Origin: a virus
Length of the DNA: 21,988 bases
IMG/VR virus record: IMGVR_UViG_3300035698_001899
Span: 1-21,988 of that record
Direction: 5' to 3' (one strand)
How positions within the stretch are numbered: position 1 is the first letter of the stretch; each line of letters begins with the position of its first letter. The position numbers were made by a program, and so were the translations under genes. The notes beneath the pieces were generated by a model. The model searched no databases. It was given only the letters and a program-made list of their open reading frames with translations, and was not told where the DNA came from. Positions 2,202 to 11,966 of the stretch are shown here, piece by piece.

Positions 2202-3454
2202 ATATATTTTCAACTGCGGCAAGGTTATTAGGTTGGAGCCCGCTATCAAATCATGATAGCGGCCCCCAGTTGGGCGCCACAGAGCGCACCACGACCATGT
2301 CAGGCGTTAGCGTCACGGATGAAAGGGCGCTGAAAGTCTCCGCTGTATGGGCCTGCGTGCAGCTAATATCCAATTCTGTGTCGGGCTTGCCTCTGGAGGT
2401 TTTCAGAGAGGCGAAAGACGGTCGCGAGTCACTTAAATCCAGACACTATTTGACCGATCTACTGCACAACAAACCGAATCGCTACATGAAGCCACGCGAT
2501 TTTCGGATGGCAATGACGGTTCAAATGACTCTATGGAATAACGCCTACGCCGAGATACAGCGTTCCGGCGAGAGGATCGTGGGGATTATCCCGCTTCGCC
2601 CTGGTCGCATGACGCCATTTATCGCTAAAGACGGCGAACTGACCTATCACTATGCGGTCGAGAGTGGCGTCAAGATTTACACGCAGAAGGATATTTTCCA
2701 CCTTAAAGGTTTTAGCACCGAGGGCATTGTAGGGGCGGAGCGCAACAACTACTCCCGCGAAGCGCTTGGCCTATCGGTTGCTGCGGAGACGTTCGCCGCC
2801 AAACAGTTTGCCAATGGTGGCAGGCCGGGAGGAGTTATAACCTTTAGTGAATTCCTCACGAAAGAGCAGCGCGAGCAAGCCAAAAAGCTGTACGAGAATA
2901 TTTCGGAGGGAGCGGTTAACGCAAATCAATTGTGGTGTCTAGAGGGTGGATCAGAATACAAGGGCTTGGAATTCGCTGCTGATCAGATGCAAATGATCGG
3001 CACTAGATCCCACCAGTTGTCCGAGGTCGCCCGCTTCTTTGGTGTTCCCGGTGTAATGATTGGCGCTGGCGATGGCAAGGGCGCGTGGCCTGCATCGTTT
3101 GAGCAGCAGATGCTTTCATATCTCACCTTCACGCTGCAAAGCTATTTGGACGAATGGGAGGCGGCTATAAGGTTTTCCCTGTTGCCAATGGGCAGCGACA
3201 TTAATGTTGACCATGACACGGGCCCGCTTGTGAAAATGGACAGCGCCGCGAAGGGCAAGTTCCTTTCTACACTGACACAAAATGGCCTAATGACCCGAAA
3301 CGAGGGCCGCAAGAAACTAAACCTTCCCCGACAAGAGGGAGGCGACAAATTAACCGTACAAGTGAACCTAACACCAATAGAAGATCTGGAGGCCATAGAT
3401 GCTTCGCAAAGCAACGAATCCACTACCCCATTGCAACCTGAAAATAGACAGTGA
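2198..3454 (+). CDS. Portal protein, HK97 family
   Basis: Dodecameric ring at the unique capsid vertex; docks the terminase and later the connector. The 418-aa product matches the Phage_portal family in length and sequence: a variable N-terminus, the conserved SAVWACVQLISNSVSGLPLEVF region near residues 48-69, a wing region with LRPGRMTP, and the clip/stem region including ARFFGVPGVMIG (about 278-289). The polar Gln/Asn-rich tail is where the downstream protease gene overlaps. Start ATG overlaps the terL stop by four bases. Nothing appears missing. Confidence 0.95.
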   Translation: MNIFSTAARLLGWSPLSNHDSGPQLGATERTTTMSGVSVTDERALKVSAVWACVQLISNSVSGLPLEVFREAKDGRESLKSRHYLTDLLHNKPNRYMKPRDFRMAMTVQMTLWNNAYAEIQRSGERIVGIIPLRPGRMTPFIAKDGELTYHYAVESGVKIYTQKDIFHLKGFSTEGIVGAERNNYSREALGLSVAAETFAAKQFANGGRPGGVITFSEFLTKEQREQAKKLYENISEGAVNANQLWCLEGGSEYKGLEFAADQMQMIGTRSHQLSEVARFFGVPGVMIGAGDGKGAWPASFEQQMLSYLTFTLQSYLDEWEAAIRFSLLPMGSDINVDHDTGPLVKMDSAAKGKFLSTLTQNGLMTRNEGRKKLNLPRQEGGDKLTVQVNLTPIEDLEAIDASQSNESTTPLQPENRQ

Positions 3455-4126: not shown

Positions 4127-4150
4127 AACCCGCCGAGTGCGGGTTTTTTT
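4127..4150 (+). terminator. Intrinsic terminator-like hairpin before capsid gene
   Basis: A perfect 7-bp stem, AACCCGC (4127-4133) with GCGGGTT (4139-4145), closes a 5-base loop and runs into seven T residues (4144-4150). It sits only about 30 bases before the capsid ATG. It is too close to leave room for a separate promoter, so the capsid message must come from read-through, antitermination or RNA processing at this point. Confidence 0.75.
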
Positions 4151-4151
4151 A

Positions 4152-4181
4152 TGCCTGCGAAAAGGCAAGGAAACAATTATG
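4152..4181 (+). promoter_or_regulatory. Capsid leader hairpin and ribosome-binding site
   Basis: Immediately after the terminator T-run, TGCCT (4152-4156) pairs with AGGCA (4163-4167) around a 6-base loop. It is followed by AAGGAAA and the ATG at 4179. The same order, spacing and nearly the same bases occur before the tail tube gene at 10184-10214. The Shine-Dalgarno sequence sets the capsid start at 4179 rather than an in-frame ATG at 4137 lying inside the terminator. Confidence 0.65.
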
Positions 4182-5384
4182 AGCAAGGAAGAGCAACAGG
4201 AACTAGACCAAGTTGGTCTTGTCGTCGAGGTAAAGGCCCTTGAAAAAGTCATTCTGGAGAAGTTCGACACTCTGAATGAAACCAGCAATGAACTGAAAGG
4301 CGAGATGGAAACTGTTGGCGCTGCCAGCACTGACACCATCGCCAAGTATGAAGCTGTCGCGAAGCAGTACGACGAACTGTACGACCGCCTCCAGGTGATC
4401 GAGCAGAAAGGCGGGACGCTGGAAGAAGAACGTGCCGAGTCTCTTGGGGAGCGATTCCTGAAGGAAGAGGGTGTTCTGGCTTTCCTTGAAGGCAAGAATC
4501 AGAGCGCCCGCATGGAGCTGAAAACGGCGATCATCAACGCAACAGGCCAAAATCAGCCTCTGGTTGAATCCGAGCGCGTTAGCGGTATTGTCACCGCACC
4601 CAATCGTCGCCTGACTATCCGCGATCTGCTTTCTGTGACCCCGACCAGCTCAAACCTGATCGAGTTCACCAGTGAGTCGTCATTCACCAACAACGCAGCA
4701 CCGACTGTGTCTGGCTCGCCTGAGCAGTACGAAAACGTCACCAAGCCTGAGTCAGCGATGGCATTCAGCTTGTCCAGCGTTCCCGTGGTAACACTGGCGC
4801 ACTTCATTCCTGCATCAAAGCAGGTTATGGAGGACTCAGCGGCCCTGTCTGGTCATATCAACAACCGTTTGATGTACGGCCTGAAGCTGAAAGAAGAATC
4901 TCAGCTTTTGGGCGGCACCGGTGCAAACCACCAGTTGAACGGACTGATTACCCAGGCGACGGCGTATGCCCCGACCTCTCCGCAGTTGGCTAACGAAATC
5001 GACATTATTCGTCATGCCATGCTGCAGCTGGAGATTTCGGAGTACACCTCCGATATTTTGGTGTTGAATCCGGTTGATTGGTACAGCATTGAAATCCGCA
5101 AGGTCGGCACTTCCGATGACCGTTATGTGGTTGGTAATCCCAACAGCATGATGAGCAAGAACCTTTGGGGCTTGCCTGTTATTTGTAGCAACTCTGTTGC
5201 TGCCGGTACGTTCCTGCTGGGCTCTCGCTCTGCTGCTGAAATTCGCGACAGAGAGCAAGCCTCTGTTCAGATCAGCCGCGAAGATGGCAACAACTTCACC
5301 AAGAACATGGTGACGGTACTTGCCGAAGAGCGTCTGGCGCTGGTTGTTTACAACACTGGCGCGTGGATCACCGGCTCACTGTAG
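4179..5384 (+). CDS. Major capsid protein, HK97 fold
   Basis: Main shell subunit, 401 aa. Residues 1 to about 110 form an acidic helical delta domain (coiled-coil pattern such as VEVKALEKVILEKFDTL at 16-32) expected to be cut off by the upstream protease. The capsid fold starts near RRLTIRDLLSVTPTSSNLIEF (143-163). Compared with HK97 gp5 from memory, the cross-link Lys aligns with K189 (VTKPES), the partner Asn with N376 (TKNM) and the catalytic Glu with E383 (AEERLAL). Other shared blocks are FTNNA, INNRLMYGL and the ISRED motif. Start chosen at 4179 because of AAGGAAA just upstream; the 14-residue longer version would begin inside the terminator. Flanked by a leader hairpin upstream and a GC hairpin downstream. 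Confidence 0.95.
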   Translation: MSKEEQQELDQVGLVVEVKALEKVILEKFDTLNETSNELKGEMETVGAASTDTIAKYEAVAKQYDELYDRLQVIEQKGGTLEEERAESLGERFLKEEGVLAFLEGKNQSARMELKTAIINATGQNQPLVESERVSGIVTAPNRRLTIRDLLSVTPTSSNLIEFTSESSFTNNAAPTVSGSPEQYENVTKPESAMAFSLSSVPVVTLAHFIPASKQVMEDSAALSGHINNRLMYGLKLKEESQLLGGTGANHQLNGLITQATAYAPTSPQLANEIDIIRHAMLQLEISEYTSDILVLNPVDWYSIEIRKVGTSDDRYVVGNPNSMMSKNLWGLPVICSNSVAAGTFLLGSRSAAEIRDREQASVQISREDGNNFTKNMVTVLAEERLALVVYNTGAWITGSL

Positions 5385-5437: not shown

Positions 5438-5677
5438 ATGAAAATAATCGTATTGAACAGCACCCTTATGGGTGACAAGTGGTATGAGCCAAAGCCATAC
5501 GCGCAAGACGTTAGCGACGCGGTGGGCGAGCATTTGTGTTCCATTGGTTCTGCTAGAATTTTCGAGACAAAAGTGGTGGAAGTGACAGAAAAAAAGCTTT
5601 CGTCTGCCTCGCAAGCGGGCCGAGCCTCACAAGAGACGACGCCCAAAAAGCAACGGACTCGAAAGCCCAGGTCATAG
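5438..5677 (+). CDS. Small capsid-adjacent protein (zero frame of -1 shift)
   Basis: A 79-aa protein, function not known. The first 45 residues resemble the short proteins often found just after HK97-type capsid genes, with a hydrophobic first strand (MKIIVLNSTL) and a later aspartate/alanine/glycine pattern (DVSDAVGEHLCSIGSARIFE). The tail after residue 53 is Ser/Gln-rich then strongly basic (PKKQRTRKPRS). Codon 53 is the end of the heptamer A_AAA_AAG (5590-5596); a -1 shift there replaces the basic tail with a 195-aa DUF115-like domain. Without the shift this short form is made. It could be a head-completion or decoration protein; that is inference from position. Confidence 0.7.
   Translation: MKIIVLNSTLMGDKWYEPKPYAQDVSDAVGEHLCSIGSARIFETKVVEVTEKKLSSASQAGRASQETTPKKQRTRKPRS
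5590..5596 (+). other. Candidate -1 ribosomal frameshift site A_AAA_AAG
   Basis: In the frame of the small protein the codons are GAA AAA AAG, giving the slippery heptamer A_AAA_AAG, the dnaX-type sequence and among the most efficient in E. coli. The downstream -1 frame is open from 5557 and carries a conserved domain but has no ATG, GTG or TTG before that domain. Three bases downstream, TCGTCT (5600-5605) can pair with AGACGA (5634-5639), with a small GGGC/GCCT hairpin inside the loop. A purine-rich GGTGGA lies about ten bases upstream. Confidence 0.7.
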
Positions 5678-6183
5678 CGGTAAACGACTGCTGGCGATTG
5701 GCGCCGGACGCTGATTATCTGTACGCCTGTGATGATCAGTGGTGGGGAGTCCACATCGATGAGGTCAAGGCGAACTTTAAAGGCGAACTGTTTACCCAGT
5801 ACCGTGATGACAAGGAAAAGCAGTACGCCGAGGACAACGGCATTACCCCTATCAAGGGTGCTGATAACCCTGGCTTGGGTCGCGATAGATTGCATTTCAA
5901 CGCAAACAGCGGAGCGCAAGCTATCAATCTGGCTTACCTGATGGGGGCTGGCTTGATCATTCTGTGTGGCTACGACATGCAGAATACGGACGGCAAGGCT
6001 CATTGGTTCGGCGATCACCCGAAAGAGCTAACCAATGGCAATTACGCCACCTATAACGCTCGATTTACGCGATTGGCGCGTGATCTGGAATCGGAGTGTG
6101 TGAGCGTGGTGAATTGCTCGCGTGTTAGTGCGTTGACGCAGTTTGATCGGATGGAATTGGGGGAACTTCTATGCGTGCTGTAA
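5596..6183 (+). CDS. DUF115-like sugar-transfer domain reached by -1 frameshift
   Basis: This open frame encodes 195 aa that, joined to the first 53 residues of the small protein upstream, would give a 248-aa fusion (5438-6183). It begins AFVCLASGPSL (fusion residues 54-64), a GxGPS-type nucleotide-binding loop, then VIAVNDCWRLAPDADYLYACD, NSGAQAINLA (157-166), LCGYDM (176-181) and HWFGDHPKEL (from 189), the order seen in DUF115/MptE-like and sialyltransferase-like Rossmann proteins; some phage homologues carry the odd name norphogenetic protein. The next gene is a paralogue with the same motifs. The first standard start in this frame is TTG at 5698, which would remove the GPS loop and the first strand-helix, so independent translation is unlikely to give a working protein. 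A homopolymer indel is the main alternative to programmed shifting. Confidence 0.72.
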   Translation, partial: AFVCLASGPSLTRDDAQKATDSKAQVIAVNDCWRLAPDADYLYACDDQWWGVHIDEVKANFKGELFTQYRDDKEKQYAEDNGITPIKGADNPGLGRDRLHFNANSGAQAINLAYLMGAGLIILCGYDMQNTDGKAHWFGDHPKELTNGNYATYNARFTRLARDLESECVSVVNCSRVSALTQFDRMELGELLCVL

Positions 6184-6794
6184 TTCTAGGCACAGGCCCA
6201 AGCGTCACGCCGGAGGTGATTGAATTACTCCAAGCAACGAGATTACCGATATTCGGATGCAACAACGCCTATCAGGTGGCGCCGTTAAAGGCTCTGCTCT
6301 CATGCAATGCCGAATGGTGGGATTACTACTGGCCTCGCGATGAAAAGCTGCGCGATGGGGATTTTGACAAGTGGACATGGGACAGCCCGACCGCAAAGCG
6401 GTACAGGATTAGCCATATCAAAGGTGAGTGGGGCGACGGCTTATCCACTACGCCGGGTGTTATCCACTTTGGGCACAGCTCCGGATACCAGCTATTAAAC
6501 CTCGCCACTGTCCAGTACGGAGTCACACAGGCGGTATTGATAGGGTATGACCTACGTTTTCCTGCTGGCTATAACGGCGTAAACAAACACCCGGGCGGTG
6601 ACAGGCACTATTTCGGCGAATACCCGAAGGAACTACAGCATTGGACGCGATTCAATATGGGCAAGGGAGGCGAGCTCAACGGTTTGCTCGATTGCTATAA
6701 AACCATTCAGCCCGATGGATTGCGGATTATCAATTGCAGTCCGGGCACTGCTCTGGACTTTTTTGAAACAGGGGAGTTGTGCGAATGGATTTAA
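6171..6794 (+). CDS. DUF115-like protein, putative glycosyltransferase-fold paralogue
   Basis: A 207-aa protein with VILGTGPSVTPEVIEL (residues 4-19), FGCNNAYQVAPLKALLSCNAEWW (28-50), HSSGYQLLNLA (102-112), LIGYDLRF (123-130), HYFGEYPKEL (146-155) and a final IINCSPGTALDFF. The motif order matches the preceding frameshift-accessed domain, so the two form a tandem paralogous pair. The fold is that of DUF115/MptE-like proteins, which include motility-accessory flagellin glycosylation factors; the substrate here is unknown. Start ATG follows TTGGGGGAAC and overlaps the previous gene by 13 bases. Its end overlaps the next gene by 10 bases, so all four cassette genes are coupled. Confidence 0.75.
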   Translation: MRAVILGTGPSVTPEVIELLQATRLPIFGCNNAYQVAPLKALLSCNAEWWDYYWPRDEKLRDGDFDKWTWDSPTAKRYRISHIKGEWGDGLSTTPGVIHFGHSSGYQLLNLATVQYGVTQAVLIGYDLRFPAGYNGVNKHPGGDRHYFGEYPKELQHWTRFNMGKGGELNGLLDCYKTIQPDGLRIINCSPGTALDFFETGELCEWI

Positions 6795-7429
6795 CCGTAT
6801 GGTGCGTCCTAAATGGCGGCAAGTATTGTGACGTCGACGTTTATTTGTTGCGCGACCAAGTTGCAGCCAATCTCAATCAGCCGCACGAATTCCGATGTTT
6901 GGCAGACCGAGAGATAGAGGGCATTGATTGCTTTATACCTGATGAACAGTGGCCGGGTTGGTGGTCGAAGCTATTGCTGTTCCGTTATGCCACTGGGTAC
7001 AACCTTTATTTCGATTTGGACACTGTTATCACGGGCTCAATTGGTGGCCTGATATCTGAACAGCTATCTATGCCGAAAAACTGGGGCCAATCAGGATACG
7101 GAGGATGCCAGTCTTCAGTTATGTCGTGGGGCATGGATTATAGCCCGATCGCCGATAGGTTTAACGTGGATGAGTTGGCGCAGCCGACAAGCGGAGACTG
7201 TGGCAGGTTCCGCGGCCTGTACGGTGATCAGGAGTACGTCACCAATCAACTTGGCAACCCCGGCGCCGGCGTCATCGCAGAAATGAAGCGCGTCTATTCT
7301 TACAAATACCACTGCCAAAAAGGTCTACCCAGTGATGCGGTCGCCATTTGCTTTCATGGTGAGCCAAAGCCGGGACAGGTATCCGACCAATGGGTAATCG
7401 ATTCACGATACACGCAAACGGCGGCCTAG
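6785..7429 (+). CDS. Putative glycosyltransferase with DxD motif (GT8-like)
   Basis: A 214-aa protein resembling GT-A-fold transferases found in some siphoviruses. Key signs are the N-terminal strand LTVWCVLNGGKYCDVDVYLLRDQV, CLADREIEGIDCF, PGWWSKLLLFRYATG (57-71), YFDLDTVITG (75-84; the DLD is a DxD metal/sugar-nucleotide site) and GDQEYV (147-152) near the acceptor side. It is shorter than bacterial GT8 enzymes and has no membrane anchor. A GTG at 6779 is in frame, but GGGGAG at 6771-6776 is only two bases from it and eight from the ATG at 6785, so the ATG is chosen. Sugar and acceptor are unknown. Confidence 0.75.
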   Translation: MDLTVWCVLNGGKYCDVDVYLLRDQVAANLNQPHEFRCLADREIEGIDCFIPDEQWPGWWSKLLLFRYATGYNLYFDLDTVITGSIGGLISEQLSMPKNWGQSGYGGCQSSVMSWGMDYSPIADRFNVDELAQPTSGDCGRFRGLYGDQEYVTNQLGNPGAGVIAEMKRVYSYKYHCQKGLPSDAVAICFHGEPKPGQVSDQWVIDSRYTQTAA

Positions 7430-8061
7430 CGCACCAGGTCGCCATCGCGAGGGCGGTAAAGGCTGGATTTGATGCCACCGGTGAAACCAGCCAAATAACT
7501 CACTCACCGCACACGGCGGGTGATATCCATGTGGCAATCGGGCCCTGGTTCGCTTTAAAGCAATGGGTTGATTCGGACACTCTGTATATCGATCGCGCGT
7601 ACTGGGGAGACCCTGAGTGTGTCTCAATTCACTGGCTCAAAGGCGGCGAGAAGTGGTTTAGCGCCAACGGCCCGGGCAGGCCGACGCCGACCCTGAAGCC
7701 CCACAAGCAGGGTGTCAGGCGATTATATCTGTGTGACTACAACAAAGAACCCCAAGGGCGCTACGACAGCGCGCGCAGACACCCAGCCAATGGGCAGAAA
7801 GGGGATCTGTCTGACGATTTAGCGCGACACGATATAGCCATAGGCGGCCGATCAACGGCCCTCGTAGACGCAGCGATTGAGGGCCTGTCAGTTATCACTG
7901 ATGACCGCAATAGCCCTGTGTGGCAGCTACACGCGCGAAAGCAGACCCGAAGGCAGTGGATTGAAAACTTGGCATGGCACAACTGGTCACTGGACGAAAT
8001 AACGAGAGGTAATGCGTGGGAACACTTGTCACAACAGAAGCGGCGGAGGAAACACCCGTAA
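7390..8061 (+). CDS. GT-B-like phage protein of the glyco cassette
   Basis: A 223-aa protein. It begins with a His/Gly-rich segment (FTIHANGGLAHQVAIARA), then DIHVAIGPWFALKQW (45-59) and DTLYIDRAYWGDP (63-75). The C-terminal half has DIAIGGRSTALVDAAIEGLSV (148-168), reminiscent of the sugar-nucleotide-binding half of GT-B transferases where a Ser/Thr after Gly-Arg and a Glu in AAIEG are typical, and ends with RRQWIENLAWHNWSLDEITRGNAWEHL. The family is recurrent in phages next to DUF115-like genes. Activity is not proven. It overlaps the gene before by 40 bases and the connector gene after by 46 bases, so it is firmly part of the head operon. Confidence 0.6.
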   Translation: MGNRFTIHANGGLAHQVAIARAVKAGFDATGETSQITHSPHTAGDIHVAIGPWFALKQWVDSDTLYIDRAYWGDPECVSIHWLKGGEKWFSANGPGRPTPTLKPHKQGVRRLYLCDYNKEPQGRYDSARRHPANGQKGDLSDDLARHDIAIGGRSTALVDAAIEGLSVITDDRNSPVWQLHARKQTRRQWIENLAWHNWSLDEITRGNAWEHLSQQKRRRKHP

Positions 8062-11253: not shown

Positions 11254-11613
11254 ATGGGCATATTGTACGGGCGAGAAGACACTATCGAGGTCAACGTTGC
11301 AACCACTATCAGCGGGAGTCTCGAAAAAAAATACAAGCTGAAATTCAAGGTTACTTTCAAGCGTCGGGATTACGACGACGCAAAAGAGCAAGTCCGGCAG
11401 CTTAACAACACTGATTATTCGGACGTCACTGAGGTCTCGCTGATTAAGAGCGACATTATTTCATGGCGCGATCTTCAGGGCGACGGTGGCGAGGTTGAGT
11501 ATAACGAAGAAAACCTCGAGGCCGCTTTACAGCAGCCGGAATATCGCTTGGCCTTTTTCAACGCATGGGGGGAGGTGCAACTGCGCCGACTGCTGGCAAA
11601 CACAAAAAACTGA
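11254..11613 (+). CDS. Tail assembly chaperone G (zero frame)
   Basis: A 119-aa acidic protein in the place of lambda gpG, between tail tube and tape measure. These chaperones coat the tape measure before tube polymerisation and are not part of the finished virion. It has an N-terminal beta segment (EVNVATTISGSLEKKYKLKFKVTF, about residues 12-35) and a later helical part ending LRRLLANTKN. Start ATG follows CAGGAGTAA at good spacing. The last two sense codons, AAA AAC, together with the preceding A form the slippery heptamer A_AAA_AAC directly before the TGA stop, allowing read-through into the T part by a -1 shift. Confidence 0.85.
   Translation: MGILYGREDTIEVNVATTISGSLEKKYKLKFKVTFKRRDYDDAKEQVRQLNNTDYSDVTEVSLIKSDIISWRDLQGDGGEVEYNEENLEAALQQPEYRLAFFNAWGEVQLRRLLANTKN
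11604..11610 (+). other. Programmed -1 frameshift site A_AAA_AAC
   Basis: In the G frame the codons are ACA AAA AAC TGA; the heptamer A_AAA_AAC obeys the X_XXY_YYZ rule and abuts the stop codon. A -1 shift there continues LIEAGYQYVQ in the T frame, which is open from before this point to 11966. Only a weak 5-bp stem ATTGA/TCAAT (11613-11631) follows. Frameshifting at this position between tail tube and tape measure is well established for siphoviruses. Confidence 0.85.
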
Positions 11614-11966
11614 TTGAGGCTGGCTATCAATACGTCCAAAGGAATCAGTCGGGCGACGATGGCCTAGCCGAAGACTCAGAGTATTTTAATCTTCCAGAAT
11701 CCTATCTAAAACGCCATAGGGATGAGCACTTCACGGTACACCACGAAGGCAAGGACGCCTTCCAGTTGTTCGAGTTTTGTCAAACCCAGTGGCGCCTTCA
11801 TCCGGCAACAGGATCGCGGATAGGTCTGGATTACACCGCAGTTATTGCAATCGCTGGCGTTATGGGTTGCAACGACTTACAGACTCTCAAATTTGTTCGT
11901 TTTATCGAGCTAGGCGCTTTAACGGCCTATGCCAACCGTGACGTGGAATCAATGATCTATGGCTAA
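11610..11966 (+). CDS. Tail assembly chaperone T part (GT fusion)
   Basis: The 118 residues translated after the -1 shift; joined to G they give a 237-aa GT protein (11254-11966). In the lambda system G and GT must be made at a fixed ratio, GT linking the chaperone-coated tape measure to tube subunits. The T part carries a DUF1799-like signature: FQLFEFCQTQWRLHP followed by RIGLDYTAVIAIAGVMG, with the QWR and GLDY pieces typical of phage proteins in this slot. An in-frame ATG at 11565 lies inside the G overlap without a good ribosome-binding site and is not thought to be used. The tape measure starts within the last eight bases. Confidence 0.82.
   Translation: MIEAGYQYVQRNQSGDDGLAEDSEYFNLPESYLKRHRDEHFTVHHEGKDAFQLFEFCQTQWRLHPATGSRIGLDYTAVIAIAGVMGCNDLQTLKFVRFIELGALTAYANRDVESMIYG

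Follow-up and report, generated by a model that had tools for sequence, protein, structure and literature searches.

A probable programmed -1 ribosomal frameshift behind the capsid gene of tailed phages, predicted to fuse a small protein to a sugar-transferase-like domain

Frameshifts in phages are known mainly from tail assembly chaperones and from a few capsid genes. The DNA analysed here, a viral stretch of 21,988 nucleotides (IMG/VR record IMGVR_UViG_3300035698_001899; hereafter the window), raises the question of how a conserved domain is translated when its reading frame, overlapping that of a small gene beside the capsid gene, offers no start codon ahead of its conserved loop. Our answer, drawn from sequence comparison, is that a programmed -1 ribosomal frameshift at 5590-5596 very probably joins the small protein (its N domain) to the domain downstream (S) in a single N-S fusion. 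We regard the frameshift as strongly supported because the -1 phase is conserved, the in-phase slip sites are varied, the frame under selection switches, and a natural in-frame fusion exists. The mechanism, -1 frameshifting, is a known one, and this is a new case of it at a new gene; it would add a common class of frameshift, one that occurs in the classic phage D3 and, at 70% identity, in no fewer than 79 lineages, and it opens to direct test how phage heads come to be decorated or modified.

Overlapping reading frames behind the capsid gene

The features of the locus are these:

4176 to 5384, + strand: major capsid protein, HK97 fold (Phage_capsid PF05065, Pfam E 1e-44), adjoining the small gene upstream
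5438 to 5677, + strand: small gene in the 0 frame, 79 aa, N domain and tail (N domains of relatives match it by profile)
5438 to 5596, + strand: N part of the predicted fusion, 53 aa (domain at residues 1-41, then a linker, from an AlphaFold2 model)
5590 to 5596, + strand: slippery heptamer A_AAA_AAG, in phase (heptamer and phase also in relatives L090, L024, L027 and L040)
5596 to 6183, + strand: S domain as predicted beyond the -1 slip, 195 aa and a stop codon (phrog_4603, E 1.2e-46; the S fold of a relative matches Maf 5mu5)
5597 to 5677, + strand: tail of the unshifted product in the 0 frame, on bases shared with the S domain
5608 to 5628, + strand: codons of the LASGPSL loop in the -1 frame (the 0 frame there encodes the Ser/Ala-rich tail)
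5698 to 5700, + strand: TTG, the earliest possible start codon in the -1 frame, past the loop
6171 to 6794, + strand: second S paralogue with its own ATG (phrog_4603, E 4.7e-16)
6779 to 7429, + strand: glycosyltransferase-like gene of the same cassette (phrog_1962, E 3.9e-21)

As listed, the capsid ORF opens at a GTG at 4137, and the in-frame ATG at 4176 is its likely start. The initial annotation had proposed a dnaX-type slip between the small gene and a start-less frame behind it, and re-examination bears out its geometry: the heptamer lies in the dnaX phase (small-gene codons GAA AAA AAG); the -1 frame stays open between 5557 and 6183, with the TTG at 5698, beyond LASGPSL, as its earliest ATG, GTG or TTG; a shift would give a product of 248 aa (53 plus 195); and the paralogue at 6171-6794 opens with an ATG six codons ahead of its own loop, TGPSV. 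The run of A residues at the slip site is seven bases long (5589-5595), and among the 20 main ORFs of the window an in-phase A_AAA_AAG occurs at 5590-5596 and nowhere else.

Most ribosomes translating the small post-capsid gene would finish the 79-aa protein, presumably the majority product, and a fraction very probably slips back one base at A_AAA_AAG, Lys AAA and Lys AAG re-pairing on AAA AAA. Shifted ribosomes would continue in the -1 frame to a 248-aa protein, a small N domain followed by a Maf/CstII-like S domain, and the proportion of N-S to bare N would be set by the shift.

The heptamer of Escherichia coli dnaX is also A_AAA_AAG; there the shift leads to an early stop, with a Shine-Dalgarno element ahead of the site and a stem-loop behind it. 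In the window neither element is clear. A search of the window for a stimulatory RNA structure found none (z 0.28, and z 0.05 for the 55 nt past the site), and the upstream Shine-Dalgarno-like element is at most a weak GGA. Across the clusters of relatives described below, the 55 nt past the site show modestly more structure than control stretches do (mean z -1.04 versus -0.05 to -0.59; P 6e-5, indicative only, as the clusters share descent), chiefly in clusters with C_CCT_TTN (-1.56).

Phase, slip sites and selection among relatives

A tblastn search of the phage collection with the small protein gave no match, so homology was traced through the S domain. Scans of viral contigs and genomes yielded about 350 places, which clustering at 70% identity reduced to 141 clusters; in 81 of these the S domain has no start codon ahead of the loop. 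In 79 of the 81 a small ORF spans the loop and the S frame lies at -1 to it; the other two have no such ORF. An in-phase X_XXY_YYZ heptamer is present in 52 of the 79, compared with 7 and 9 in the two other phases and at most 8.9 expected at the control rate; the slip site and its phase recur among relatives more often than chance allows. The heptamers are of several types (C_CCT_TTN in 23 clusters, A_AAC_CCN in 10, A_AAA_AAN in 7, G_GGA_AAN in 4, G_GGC_CCN in 3, and others). Among the 27 clusters without a heptamer, 23 have an in-phase C_CCY (6 and 3 off phase), which suggests slippage of the P-site proline tRNA alone; in roughly 4 of the 79 the region tested contains no slip site of either kind. 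In a smaller set of start-less relatives, 24 of 29 clusters carry an in-phase heptamer, the number predicted by 39,369 control codons being 2.4 (P about 1e-23, indicative given that the clusters are related). The absence of a start codon is by itself weak evidence (16 observed in the overlap, where control rates predict 23); what carries the argument is the phase, the slip sites, the frame switch in selection and the natural fusion.

Several individual relatives extend the range of sites. Many lineages, L175, L163, L271 and L279 among them, are without a full heptamer and keep C_CCT or C_CCC in phase as a proline slip site, and T_TTT_A was seen repeatedly (L284, L291, L308); both kinds may be single-tRNA -1 slips. 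The start-less L242 has no spanning ORF, its 0 frame ending just ahead of the loop, past an AAA CCC TTC stretch, and it may represent the same arrangement. At L077:2462-3073 there is an S copy without the usual start codon, spanning small ORF or capsid gene.

Selection was measured in a clade of 22 relatives whose alignment is nearly gap-free, the nearest relatives of the window being few and divergent. In this clade the 0 frame has a pN/pS of 0.27-0.53 ahead of the site, which lies at -81, and of about 1.5 right behind it; the S frame has 1.7-2.5 ahead of the site and 0.45, then 0.13, behind it. Between -87 and -39 the codon position that varies most ceases to be position 3 of the 0 frame and becomes position 3 of the S frame. 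Purifying selection thus changes frame at the heptamer, from that of the small gene to the -1 frame, and the 0-frame tail after the site lacks protein-level constraint in the same clade. Sister sub-clades carry A_AAC_CCC and C_CCA_AAG on the identical two codons, so the capacity to slip is apparently retained though the sequence differs; one member, L064, has lost the slip site (G_GAC_CCC). Across the loop the 0-frame tail is rich in Ser, Ala and Thr (SASQxxxASQ) in many lineages and resembles an O-glycosylation acceptor, but this composition is forced by the loop codons. A functional role for the Ser/Ala-rich tail was considered and set aside, given the missing constraint past the site in the clade tested.

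The same unit can be recognized in well-known phages, S relatives being found by protein search in 74 phage records. In phage D3 a small ORF, orf6.5, comes after the capsid gene, with the S domain overlapping it in the -1 phase, and the D3 frame reads ATC CCA AAG, an in-phase C_CCA_AAG. The annotated start of D3 orf7 (AF165214.2, 5691-6409; L001:1337-2055) lies past the GPSL loop, as do those of its relatives, and database 'sialyltransferases' of this type are to all appearance truncated entries. D14C and Psp6 are likewise in the -1 phase, the only in-phase heptamer of Psp6 lying far upstream. Other copies of S begin on their own: in PAJU2 and in P1 (pmgO) S has an ATG and no overlapping or spanning small ORF, and second S copies with their own start follow in L023, L024, L027, L028, L040 and L090. 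In L029 the capsid gene (1059-2228) is followed, 71 bases past its end, by a single ORF of 264 aa (2300-3094) in which an N-like part and S share one frame; a profile of the N domain built without L029 matches it weakly (E 2.2e-4 as a single test), and 2 of 1000 shuffles score as well. A second candidate in-frame fusion, L096, is not relied on: its N match is weak, as is that of L029 (E about 2e-4 as a single test and 1-2 of 1000 shuffles as good for the two), and no capsid gene was found upstream.

How else might the two frames be explained? S could be made alone by internal initiation, at the TTG at 5698 or at a non-standard start in the overlap, as the annotation of D3 orf7 from past the loop and the S copies with their own starts in PAJU2, P1 and Enterobacter would allow. 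Initiation at 5698, however, would forfeit the invariant GPS of the loop together with the first strand and helix, and the -1 frame of the window runs for 18 codons ahead of the loop without ATG, GTG or TTG; the -1 phase of nearly all start-less clusters, the enrichment of in-phase slip sites and the one-ORF fusion of L029 also speak against it, and we consider it quite improbable. Slippage of the polymerase rather than of the ribosome would yield the same fusion, and runs of A do occur at the site in the window and in several relatives; yet seven A residues are few for bacterial polymerase slippage, and most lineages carry C_CCT_TTN, A_AAC_CCN, C_CCA_AAN or G_GGC_CCN, which contain no long homopolymer, so that transcriptional slippage seems to us slightly less probable still. 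The reading to which we give least credence, a very slight one, is that the frames are one ORF broken by a base-calling error or by decay. Homopolymers are classic error sites, but the independent contigs L090, L024, L027 and L040 share both A_AAA_AAG and the -1 phase, the layout recurs in genomes deposited as complete (D3, D14C, Psp6), and the S frame of the 22-sequence clade is under strong purifying selection; this reading is already contradicted by the relatives.

Folds and possible role of the two domains

The S domain of the window matches PHROG 4603 ('alpha-2,3-sialyltransferase') over profile positions 1-174 of 178. Its earlier description as a DUF115-like sugar-transfer domain is upheld by fold (Maf Z 16.4, Cst-I and Cst-II Z 11-13) and not by Pfam score, the match to MptE-like PF01973 reaching 18.5 bits, below the gathering cut-off of 34.6. 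In a model of the L029 fusion, pLDDT is 92-98 nearly throughout S (87-88 in one stretch) and 56-71 in the N part. The best fold match of this S domain is Maf 5mu5, with the Z of 16.4 extending over 186 residues (VIA-align), followed by Cst-I (Z 12.8), CstII (up to 12.4) and an MptE-type HPPK (11.9). Run on the models of N and of the L029 fusion, Foldseek yielded no hit reaching E 0.001, and the fold assignments rest on VIA-align. S is accordingly predicted to adopt a Maf/GT42 (CstII)-type sugar-transferase fold, an assignment supported at fold level. With the flagellin glycosyltransferase Maf and with Cst-I/Cst-II it shares the fold at a sequence identity of 11-16%; unlike them it is joined to a phage head-module domain, and its activity is putative.

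For N, the AlphaFold2 model of 53 residues has a mean pLDDT of 88.8 (93-96 over residues 1-40) and a beta-beta-beta-alpha-beta fold. In sequence-profile comparison N hits a GINS subunit at E 1.3e-5, and its match to the DNA-packaging protein gpFI of lambda, at E 0.19, is not significant; the structure resembles GINS, L9 and gpFI (Z 3.8-5.2, VIA-align), all common small folds. The C-terminal domain of gpFI superposes on N over 41 residues at 2.2 A with 22% identity (Z 3.8); GINS or ribosomal L9 domains match N as well as, or better than, gpFI and Bacillus subtilis YqbF. In lambda the gpFI gene comes after the capsid gene. The weak likeness and the same gene position make kinship of N with gpFI a lead.

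From gene order and this likeness to gpFI, N may dock on the capsid: encoded where gpFI is in lambda and resembling it weakly in fold, it would bring S to the capsid or prohead, where S would transfer a CMP-activated sugar onto a head protein. A few enzyme domains could then sit on the virion at a set ratio, as the initial annotation envisaged. A mass-spectrometry list of lambda virion proteins omits gpFI (PMC10721106), so the fusion could instead act during assembly and then leave, and we regard a role during assembly as likely as one in the virion. Put more broadly, and tentatively, this widespread head-module frameshift might supply a capsid-docked protein glycosyltransferase of Maf type at a fixed minority dose, many tailed phages sugar-coating their own head proteins during assembly. 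A different function, which rivals this role and not the frameshift, is that the product works away from the capsid, S modifying lipopolysaccharide or another cell target and N serving as a stable leader. The fold of S matches the sialyltransferases Cst-I and Cst-II, which act on glycans, and phage sugar enzymes often alter the surface sugars of the host; against this, the frameshift form is tied to the slot right behind the capsid gene, and Maf, the best fold match, is a protein-directed transferase. We consider the off-capsid function possible, at rather less than an even chance.

Comparison with known frameshifts and gene neighbourhood

In the literature searched, which reached few subscription journals, we found no published description of this frameshift site, and three reviews or tools (PMC5009743, PMC10885494, PMC3711429) do not mention the gene in the passages searched. 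D3 orf6.5/orf7 and its relatives (Detrevirus) represent the same N-S unit on an in-phase slip site, entered as two genes, the second truncated ahead of the loop, with no frameshift noted. Public annotations split the unit in this way and drop the S loop, and the fusion is therefore missing from the records inspected; none of the D3-type phage records inspected has a joined CDS.

Frameshifting in the head module is itself described for T7/T3 gene 10, Lactobacillus A2 and Listeria PSA, each yielding a minor extended protein (PMC5009743). The capsid protein itself is extended in these phages, by an Ig-like domain in T3 and A2; here, by contrast, it is the small post-capsid gene that would gain a sugar-transferase fold. 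The tail assembly chaperones of lambda G/GT type likewise combine a -1 slip at X_XXY_YYZ, a structural module and a minor, C-terminally extended product, whereas the pair in the window lies between the capsid and the head-tail connector and its extension is an enzyme-like domain. Nor is the pair at 5438-6183 of tail-chaperone type by position, since it follows the capsid gene and is not just upstream of the tape measure gene. A capsid gene stands directly upstream in 70 of 81 frameshift-type clusters (cluster representatives were chosen slightly differently for this tally and for that of 79).

Between capsid and head-tail connector, the window carries at 6171-8061 a cassette of the S paralogue, the phrog_1962 glycosyltransferase-like gene and an unknown gene, and sugar-enzyme genes also lie downstream in L029 (judged by eye) and in phage D14Q (annotated heptosyltransferase). 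At 11254-11966, just upstream of the tape measure gene, there is a further pair, likely the tail assembly chaperone pair, whose second ORF lies at -1 and which carries an in-phase A_AAA_AAC at 11604-11610; the genome of the window seems to use one kind of slip site twice.
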